DNA from: Leptolyngbya iicbica LK
GTDB taxonomy: Bacteria > Cyanobacteriota > Cyanobacteriia > Phormidesmidales > Phormidesmidaceae
DNA length: 64,000 bases
Direction of reading: 5' to 3'
Assembly (NCBI RefSeq): GCF_004212215.1
Contig: NZ_QVFV01000002.1
Location: 1,053,528-1,117,527 of the forward strand
Below the pieces are notes generated by a model that saw only the letters and a program-made list of their open reading frames with translations, was not told where the DNA came from and did no database searches. This document shows, one piece after another, positions 12,391-14,347 of this stretch (positions are counted from its first letter, which is position 1; each line of letters starts with the position of its first letter). Position numbers and translations under genes: made by a program.

Positions 12391-12880
12391 ACTGTATTTT
12401 ATTCGTCACGGCATCGCCGCTGACCGGGGCACTTATGCCCAAGACGCAGAGCGCCCCCTGACTGAGCAGGGTGAACTGCGCACTGCGGCGATCGCTGACC
12501 GCTTAGTACAGCTAGGTTGCCGGGTCGAGCATATTTTGACGAGTCCCCTGGTGCGCGCCCACCAGACGACACAAATCTTACTGGAAGCGGGCGTCGCTCC
12601 GACCTCGACAACGTTAGACGTGCTCGCACCTAACGGTAACTTGCATACCTGGCTAGATTGGCTGACCGACTGGCAACTCTCACACCCGGTTAGTCGCCTG
12701 GCACTCGTCGGCCACGAACCAGACCTGAGCAACTGGGCACAACTCTTCGTACATGGGGAAGCCACCCATAACTGGCGACTCAAAAAAGCGGGTGTGATTG
12801 GTGTTGAGGTACCTGCCGCGCAAAATGCGATCGGGCATAGCATCCTGTTTTGGTTCGCTCCCCCCAGATTACTCCTGTAA
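12368..12880 (+). CDS. sixA: phosphohistidine phosphatase SixA
   Basis: A 170-residue histidine-phosphatase-fold protein: the catalytic RHG is in LYFIRHGIAADRG near residue 13, with RPLTEQG and VGHEPDLS as further family motifs. SixA removes phosphate from phosphohistidine, in Escherichia coli from PtsN-pathway or HPt proteins. A partner HPt-containing regulator is encoded about 6 kb away, though no link is shown. It overlaps the DHH gene by 23 bases. Confidence 0.92.
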   Translation: MASSPQTELYFIRHGIAADRGTYAQDAERPLTEQGELRTAAIADRLVQLGCRVEHILTSPLVRAHQTTQILLEAGVAPTSTTLDVLAPNGNLHTWLDWLTDWQLSHPVSRLALVGHEPDLSNWAQLFVHGEATHNWRLKKAGVIGVEVPAAQNAIGHSILFWFAPPRLLL

Positions 12881-12964
12881 GCCTTATACGACCTTCAAAT
12901 CGCTCCTCACTTACAAAATACTGAGCGCACGAGGCATCTCCAAACGGCTAGCCAAAAAATAAAA

Positions 12965-13002
12965 TGGCGTATTTTGCAGCATTAAGGCAACAAAATACGC
13001 CA
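12965..13002 (-). terminator. rho-independent terminator of the DUF4278 operon
   Basis: TGGCGTATTTTG at 12965-12976 and CAAAATACGCCA at 12991-13002 form a perfect 12-bp stem with a 14-base loop. On the minus strand the stem is followed by TTTTATTTTTT, a proper U-tract, so it ends transcription of the small-protein operon. On the plus strand it may also serve sixA, but the tract there is weaker. Confidence 0.8.
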
Positions 13003-13062
13003 CTCCCTCACTTTTTCTCCCTAGACTTGGTTAAGCACCATGGCCTAGAAAACAGGTTGTAA

Positions 13063-13233
13063 CTATTTAACTTTGGCGCCGCGATAGATCAGGCCATCAA
13101 CATGCTCGGCATGTAGGTTCTTAGCTACATGGCGGGTAACGGTTGCGCCACGATATTGACCGATCACTTCTTCAGCCAACTGCACTTGAGGAGTGTGAGT
13201 AGCGTATTCGGCGCCGCGATAACGTAAAGTCAT
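13063..13233 (-). CDS. DUF4278 (YRG-repeat) small protein, copy 1, PirA-like
   Basis: A 56-residue soluble protein starting MTLRYRGAEYATHTP with three YRG motifs (residues 5-7, about 28-30 and 51-53), the DUF4278 signature. Family knowledge, from memory: the Synechocystis PII-interacting protein PirA, which tunes flux into arginine synthesis, is a small protein of this group. The ATG at 13233 follows an AGAGGCG Shine-Dalgarno eight bases upstream; longer readings to 13353 run through the riboswitch and are not coding. It is the last of three paralogues in one operon and differs from copy 2 at five residues. Confidence 0.85.
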   Translation of the reverse strand: MTLRYRGAEYATHTPQVQLAEEVIGQYRGATVTRHVAKNLHAEHVDGLIYRGAKVK

Positions 13234-13278
13234 GATTTTTTCGCCTCTTGCGAAAGGTTTGCAGTGAATTGAGAGGCG

Positions 13279-13341
13279 CGTTCCTTCAGAGAAACTTTCC
13301 CTTACTTCCGTCCTGGCCAAAAAACTGGCTGGATGAACGAT
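13279..13341 (-). promoter_or_regulatory. glutamine riboswitch (glnA / downstream-peptide class), unit 1
   Basis: On the minus strand the leader reads ATCGTTCATCC, a variable hairpin, GGACGGAAGTAAGG, a second hairpin, then CTGAAGGAACG. These are the conserved blocks of the glutamine aptamers known as glnA and Downstream-peptide RNAs. P1 is CGTTC/GAACG. Immediately 3' lies CGCCTCT (13272-13278 in plus coordinates), perfectly complementary to the copy 1 Shine-Dalgarno AGAGGCG (13242-13248), suggesting translational control. Confidence 0.88.
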
Positions 13342-13356
13342 TAAACGAAGCATTGA

Positions 13357-13527
13357 TTAGCGAACTTTGGCGCCGCGATAGACGAGACCGTCAATATGGT
13401 CAGCGTGTAAGTTTTTAGCTACGTGACGGGTCACAGTAGCACCACGATATTGACCGATAACTTCTTCAGCTAACTGCACTTGAGTGGTGTGAGTAGCGTA
13501 TTCAGCGCCGCGATAACGTAAAGTCAT
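13357..13527 (-). CDS. DUF4278 (YRG-repeat) small protein, copy 2, PirA-like
   Basis: A 56-residue paralogue starting MTLRYRGAEYATHTT and ending GLVYRGAKVR, with the same three YRG motifs. It differs from copy 1 at only five positions (P/T, E/D, V/I, I/V, K/R), all but the first conservative, so the duplication is recent or kept similar by gene conversion. It is shorter than 60 codons and easily missed. Its own aptamer lies upstream at 13572-13634, and the aptamer of copy 1 starts 15 bases after its stop, which is also why a shared transcript is likely. Confidence 0.85.
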   Translation of the reverse strand: MTLRYRGAEYATHTTQVQLAEEVIGQYRGATVTRHVAKNLHADHIDGLVYRGAKVR

Positions 13528-13571
13528 GATTTTTCGCCTCTAACGAAGAGTTTGCAGTGAATCGAGAGGCG

Positions 13572-13634
13572 CGTTCCTTCAGAGAAACTTTCCCTTACTT
13601 CCGTCCAAACCAGAATCCTGGTCGGATGAACGAT
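13572..13634 (-). promoter_or_regulatory. glutamine riboswitch, unit 2
   Basis: Same block order as unit 1: ATCGTTCATCC, hairpin ACCAG/CTGGT, GGACGGAAGTAAGGG, hairpin, CTGAAGGAACG. The adjacent CGCCTCT (13565-13571) is again complementary to the downstream AGAGGCG Shine-Dalgarno (13535-13541). The apical hairpin has changed sequence relative to units 1 and 3 while keeping pairing, which is covariation supporting the fold. Confidence 0.88.
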
Positions 13635-13651
13635 TGAACAAAAGAAGCAGA

Positions 13652-13822
13652 CTACTTAACCTTAGAGCCGCGATAGGTTAAACCATCAATATGCTGGCTC
13701 GGAGCGTTCGTCGCAACTCGACGAGTCACAACTGCTCCTCTGTAAGTACCAATCACTTCTTCAAAGTAATTGAAACCATTTTGGCAGGGTTCGTAATCTG
13801 CACCACGATAACGTAAGCTCAT
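13652..13822 (-). CDS. DUF4278 (YRG-repeat) small protein, copy 3, PirA-like
   Basis: A 56-residue paralogue starting MSLRYRGADYEPCQNG and ending DGLTYRGSKVK, first gene of the operon and more diverged than copies 1 and 2 (it has one cysteine and an aromatic patch NYFEEV). The three YRG motifs and spacing are conserved. The ATG at 13822 follows GGAGGCG six bases upstream; an ATG eight codons further upstream is unlikely because it precedes this Shine-Dalgarno. The strongest promoter of the locus lies upstream of its aptamer. Confidence 0.85.
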   Translation of the reverse strand: MSLRYRGADYEPCQNGFNYFEEVIGTYRGAVVTRRVATNAPSQHIDGLTYRGSKVK

Positions 13823-13875
13823 AATTTCGCCTCCAAATGACAACAAGAGATGTTGATCGTGTAGTGAAAGAGGCG

Positions 13876-13939
13876 CGTTCCTTCAGAGAAGATATCTCTT
13901 ACTTCCGTCCTGTCCAGATGCGCTGGTCGGATGAACGAT
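13876..13939 (-). promoter_or_regulatory. glutamine riboswitch, unit 3 (promoter-proximal)
   Basis: Begins about 10 bases after the predicted transcription start: ATCGTTCATCC, hairpin CCAG/CTGG, GGACGGAAGTAAGAG, hairpin, CTGAAGGAACG. The adjacent CGCCTC (13870-13875) pairs with the GAGGCG Shine-Dalgarno of copy 3 (13828-13833), six pairs here against seven in the other units, with a longer loop. Conserved aptamer blocks are identical to units 1 and 2. Confidence 0.88.
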
Positions 13940-13948
13940 TTGCTTTCT

Positions 13949-13962
13949 GTATTCAAAGATAC
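13949..13962. promoter_or_regulatory. NtcA box GTA-N8-TAC overlapping the -10
   Basis: The 14-base palindrome GTATTCAAAGATAC fits the NtcA consensus GTA-N8-TAC exactly. It covers the whole predicted -10 hexamer and reaches the start site. NtcA-activated promoters usually have the box near -41; a box over the -10 fits repression, as described for the gif genes of glutamine synthetase inactivation. A chance match is possible for six fixed bases, but the position is telling. Confidence 0.65.
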
Positions 13963-13984
13963 GGTTTATATTTGATTTTGTCAA
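13956..13984 (-). promoter_or_regulatory. sigma-70-type promoter of the DUF4278 operon
   Basis: On the minus strand TTGACA (13979-13984) and TATCTT (13956-13961) are separated by exactly 17 bases. The predicted start near 13949 lies about 10 bases before the first aptamer base. No other promoter of this quality was seen between the three units, so one transcript spanning all of them, ended at the 12965-13002 hairpin, is the simplest reading. Confidence 0.75.
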
Positions 13985-14275
13985 GCAGATATTCCTCTTT
14001 GAGGATGAATTATGACCAAACGTGAACTTAGGTCAGTTGGGTAGGTTGCCAACCCAGGGGCAATCCTGAACTTTACAGATCTGGTCAACTTCAAAAGACA
14101 TTTACCTTCTAGAGCACCGTAAACATCCAAGCTCCCCGTTACGTGAGTAACGTGTGTTAATTCAATCGTCGCCATCGGGAGAGCCTTTGGCTGCGCCTGG
14201 GCTGTTTCGTCAAAGGCTGTTTTGGCGATCGCTCTTTCAGATCTCGCTAAGCCTGATAAAATATGGAACTGCAAT

Positions 14276-14347
14276 GCCGATGTGGCTCAGTGGTAGAGCA
14301 CTCGATTCGTAATCGAGCGGTCGCGGGTTCAAATCCCGCCATCGGCT
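14276..14347 (+). tRNA. tRNA-Thr (anticodon CGU)
   Basis: A 72-base cloverleaf: acceptor GCCGATG/CATCGGC with discriminator T, D-arm GCTC/GAGC, anticodon stem CTCGA/TCGAG around TTCGTAA (anticodon CGT), and T-arm GCGGG TTCAAAT CCCGC. The 3' CCA is not encoded, as is common in cyanobacteria. It is read from the plus strand, divergently from the DUF4278 operon. Confidence 0.95.

Follow-up and report, generated by a model that had tools for sequence, protein, structure and literature searches.

A candidate gifB-type NtcA-repressed promoter preceding a three-unit glutamine-riboswitch/DUF4278 operon in Leptolyngbya iicbica LK

The DUF4278 operon and its promoter region

The window, i.e., the whole 64,000-nucleotide stretch analyzed here, carries on its minus strand an operon of three units, each consisting of a glutamine riboswitch aptamer followed by a 56-aa DUF4278 open reading frame (Table 1). 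All three aptamers score above the curated cut-off of the RF01739 covariance model (35 bits), and the three proteins, with PF14105 scores of 46.0, 42.4, and 38.1 bits, all pass the gathering cut-off of 25.3 bits. Units 2 and 3 (window 13063–13634) are close copies of each other, including their aptamers, which points to a probable recent tandem duplication.

A comparison of one 56-aa product of the operon with NCBIfam yielded no match to the C-terminal IF7-like inhibitory segment or to any other family, and a search of the whole genome with NF052599 returned three matches at other places and none in the DUF4278 operon. Apart from IF7A-like matches, neither Pfam nor NCBIfam assigned a function to DUF4278 or to the remaining riboswitch-linked small proteins that were scanned, and a search of solved structures found no convincing relative. 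The AlphaFold model of protein 1 consists for the most part of β-strand, with a pTM of 0.36, i.e., low certainty.

Table 1. Features of the promoter, leader, and coding units of the operon (window coordinates).
Feature	Position	Strand	Basis
-35 hexamer TTGACA	13979..13984	-	sequence; promoter scan; conserved in orthologous promoters
Candidate NtcA box GTATCTTTGAATAC (minus-strand reading, 13962-13949)	13949..13962	.	exact GTAN8TAC; conservation
-10 hexamer TATCTT, inside the candidate NtcA box	13956..13961	-	sequence; promoter scan; orthologue alignment
Inferred transcription start (+1), about 13947-13949	13948	-	deduced from -10 spacing
Glutamine riboswitch aptamer 1, RF01739	13872..13939	-	cmscan 49.3 bits, E 8.7e-08
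CGCCTCT, predicted pairing with unit 1 Shine-Dalgarno	13869..13875	-	fold; complementarity, 7 pairs
Shine-Dalgarno GGAGGCG, unit 1	13828..13834	-	sequence; complementarity
DUF4278 protein 1, 56 aa	13652..13822	-	PF14105 E 2e-09
Glutamine riboswitch aptamer 2, without own promoter or NtcA box	13568..13634	-	52.5 bits
DUF4278 protein 2, 56 aa	13357..13527	-	PF14105 E 9e-11
Glutamine riboswitch aptamer 3, without own promoter or NtcA box	13275..13341	-	52.3 bits
DUF4278 protein 3, 56 aa	13063..13233	-	PF14105 E 7e-12

The TTGACA/TATCTT pair, separated by a 17-nt spacer (13978–13962, minus strand), was the top-ranked sigma-70-like pair in a promoter scan of 12800–14300, with 10 of 12 matches, although its -10 agrees with the consensus at just four of six positions. 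A weaker promoter-like pair at 13916–13889, also returned by the scan, sits within the aptamer. The element GTATTCAAAGATAC at 13949–13962 covers the -10, ends at the inferred start, and is separated from aptamer 1 (13939–13872) by ten nucleotides. The preliminary description had reported a GTA-N8-TAC element holding the -10 of a TTGACA-17-TATCTT promoter, and both sequence and promoter scan confirm its coordinates; its ‘perfect palindrome’, by comparison, survives in the half-sites (GTAT-N6-ATAC), while the inner six bases are asymmetrical. With a start at 13948, as deduced from the -10 spacing, the box would be centered at -7.5.

Directly after the aptamer lies CGCCTCT, complementary to the Shine-Dalgarno of each unit, an arrangement that fits translational control; the complementarity is strong, and one genome has CACCTC/GAGGTG in place of CGCCTC/GAGGCG at loci L026 and L053. 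In the RNA fold by itself, the helix that pairs the Shine-Dalgarno is present together with the aptamer closing stem. That glutamine would turn translation on is a direction taken from the literature.

Placement and conservation of the box

Taken on its own, GTAN8TAC occurs at chance level: the window contains five matches versus 3.39 ± 1.90 expected, which is not significant. We therefore gathered glutamine-riboswitch loci for comparison, drawing on the organism's own genome (seven aptamers), 291 genomes of the phylum, 65 genomes of the family, and two named loci, to obtain a set of 128 non-redundant aptamers. An exact GTAN8TAC ending 8–18 nt before the aptamer CGTTCA was found for 68 of the 128, while composition shuffles gave a mean of 1.1 and a maximum of five at the same placement (kinship among loci uncorrected). 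When no motif was preset, GTA-N8-TAC outnumbered every other palindromic dyad within 48 nt upstream, with 68 occurrences against 23 for the runner-up and a maximum of 18 in shuffled sequence. In the phylum sample, exact boxes occurred in 28/51 genomes, 21/35 genera, and 17/22 families. Thus, unlike the bare box, its placement upstream of the aptamer is significant. A chance occurrence of the 6-base pattern, plausible from the window alone given five matches against an expected 3.4, is refuted by this position-specific enrichment and by conservation in relatives, and its probability is practically nil.

Conservation was read from an alignment of 26 promoters of orthologous DUF4278-only genes, which were picked on their protein sequence, irrespective of the box. 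All 26 retain GTA and 25 retain TAC, TTGAC is present in 26/26 (mostly as TTGACA), and the CAGAA after the box is conserved along with the -35, while most of the spacer and all upstream sequence varies. The close relatives L131, L140, and L141 have TATATT at the -10 position. Two of these, L140 (Halomicronema sp. CCY15110) and L141 (Leptolyngbya sp. SIOISBB), share the identical three-unit layout with a single box in front; no box precedes units 2 and 3 in the three arrays (0/6 internal aptamers), as expected if a single promoter serves each array.

The box could instead lie where NtcA acts as a class II activator, i.e., near -41.5 of a start directed toward the operon or onto the opposite strand. 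NtcA activator promoters usually do without a good -35, whereas a good one is present here. As read from the sequence, neither strand has a TAN3T at about 22–24 nt past the box, and an operon-ward -10 would sit inside the aptamer, so that the RNA would lack the 5′ half of the aptamer. Although GTAN8TAC also serves as an activator site, according to PMC3898017, NtcA activation is very improbable because there is no -10 at the required distance.

Association of the box with DUF4278 genes

The distribution of the box follows gene class. It precedes 61 of 84 DUF4278-headed units versus 7 of 44 other riboswitch genes (Fisher p = 7e-10). Classes were set by simple motif rules, which makes the numbers close to class boundaries approximate; in addition, sequences from relatives do not count as independent. 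Within the latter, the box is found at none of 15 loci of a ~75-aa membrane-protein class and at one of nine loci of stand-alone IF-like proteins. Being tied to gene class and rare at other riboswitch genes, the box is therefore not a by-product of the aptamer. The 23 DUF4278-headed units without an exact box comprise, by eye, six internal units, about nine with one mismatch, and eight others. Where a good -35 was found, the box mostly lies either 15–16 nt (47 cases) or 12–13 nt (eight cases) after it and covers the -10 in both registers.

These observations bear on a rival account, in which a strong constitutive promoter not bound by NtcA would have GTA and TAC only as part of its -10 and the surroundings of its start. 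The box does overlap the -10 and start region, where conservation is expected anyway. Yet the TAC downstream of the -10 is conserved equally; the second register, with TTGACA 12–13 nt before the box, retains GTAN8TAC with the -10 in the other half; and the membrane-protein and IF-like classes (0/15, 1/9) often keep -35-like and A+T-rich -10-like sequence without the box. We regard a purely constitutive promoter as improbable.

Several small riboswitch-linked protein groups emerged from the same loci. The ~75-aa membrane protein, conserved as MLVPSL...NTxEE... behind a glutamine riboswitch at ~15 loci with no NtcA box (among them L054, L065, L075, L083, L087, L089, L090, L092, L096, and L097), had no match for the one member compared with Pfam and NCBIfam. 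Stand-alone IF7-like proteins of ~45–56 aa, preceded by the riboswitch without an exact box, occur at L016, L019, L023, L025, L028, L030, and L034. Proteins of ~60 aa with an FDLWA/FSLWA motif (L052, L062, L073, L074, L094) and of ~93 aa with a QWQTY.ELxP motif (L057, L059) also lie behind glutamine riboswitches; one member of each group was scanned, and neither was assigned to a family. At L001 (own genome, C2:1044288–1044364, ~9 kb left of the window), L003, L078, and L099, the riboswitch precedes predicted membrane peptides of 40–53 aa whose hydrophobic stretch ends in LCW; an NtcA box is present at L001 and L078, and the L001 and L003 peptides had no match in Pfam.

The genome of L. iicbica LK encodes one clear NtcA (TIGR03697, 379.8 bits versus a cut-off of 244.95). 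Its gifA, gifB, and a third IF-like gene also have boxes, the true gifB lying at a separate locus (L002/L148). The same genome contains further DUF4278 genes absent from its seven riboswitch loci. In one group (L040–L045), several of which are clustered on C1 and C2, the products start like MKLSFLGQSYE, and L041 is the one member with a GTAN8TAC in the 260 nt before the gene; at another such gene (L039, C4:152331–152501), GTATCAATGAATAC lies 64 nt before the start codon.

Relation to gifB and the predicted dual control

The closest known system is gifB (IF17) of Synechocystis PCC 6803, which, according to the review PMC6316151, shares with the operon a box at about -7.5 (the center here being counted from the inferred start), an RF01739 leader aptamer, and a DUF4278 protein. 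In that text, NtcA sites are centered at -30.5 in gifA and -7.5 in gifB, both genes are repressed by NtcA, and the glutamine riboswitch of Synechocystis gifB raises IF17 expression. Since gifB was published with both an NtcA site and a glutamine riboswitch, an NtcA box over the -10 combined with this riboswitch is an already known layout, a precedent that the preliminary description missed, as it did the chance-level frequency of the bare box. The operon differs from gifB in that its products are DUF4278 only (56 aa), with no IF7/IF17 inhibitory part, and in that the aptamer–ORF unit appears three times behind one promoter.

Other systems share fewer of these features. PMM1846 of Prochlorococcus and marine picocyanobacterial genes of its type encode small DUF4278 proteins with a glutamine riboswitch and an NtcA motif in the promoter (PMC6316151); their aptamer is type 2 (RF01704), whereas those of the operon are type 1, and the likeness in the NtcA motif is one of presence. 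In the portions of PMC3898017, PMC10907346, and PMC6316151 considered here, the NtcA-repressed promoters of gifA, nirP1, rbcL, and gor likewise place the box past the -35, either within the core promoter or across the start: in rbcL and gor it follows the -35 (PMC3898017), and in nirP1 it lies over the start (PMC10907346). The same portions mention no glutamine riboswitch for any of these four genes, in contrast to the operon.

At the operon, GTAN8TAC is placed as expected for an NtcA-repressed promoter, past the -35 and over the -10. Conserved placement, the footprint in orthologues, and the link to DUF4278 genes leave the predicted NtcA-repressor logic well supported, and we assign a probability of roughly 0.85 to a gifB-type NtcA-repressed promoter in front of the three-unit operon. 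This conservation and the published gifB case back what was first proposed, namely a box over the -10, a placement suited to repression, and joint control by NtcA and the riboswitch. On the model of gifB and other NtcA-repressed genes, which supply the binding by NtcA, the repression, and the activating sense of the riboswitch, control would proceed as follows. (i) Nitrogen shortage: 2-oxoglutarate-loaded NtcA, with PipX, would occupy the box over the -10 and block RNA polymerase. (ii) Nitrogen excess: 2-oxoglutarate would drop, NtcA would be released, and the operon would be transcribed from about 13948. (iii) Glutamine binding: on each of the three aptamers, glutamine would increase translation of the ORF behind that aptamer.

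A more tentative and rather doubtful proposal is that stand-alone DUF4278 proteins form a separate, dose-amplified effector of nitrogen excess that may act without the IF inhibitory part, e.g., on glutamine synthetase or on inactivating-factor stability; a single NtcA operator and a riboswitch for each of the three cistrons would govern it.

The double control, by 2-oxoglutarate through NtcA and by glutamine through RNA, was known from one Synechocystis gene and would now represent a conserved promoter–leader cassette, found, on the strength of comparison alone, in at least 21 of the 35 sampled riboswitch-bearing genera and with two alternative spacings from the -35. The cassette is linked to DUF4278 genes and not to the riboswitch as such, and the three-unit array offers a handy natural test of the role of DUF4278 without the inhibitory tail.
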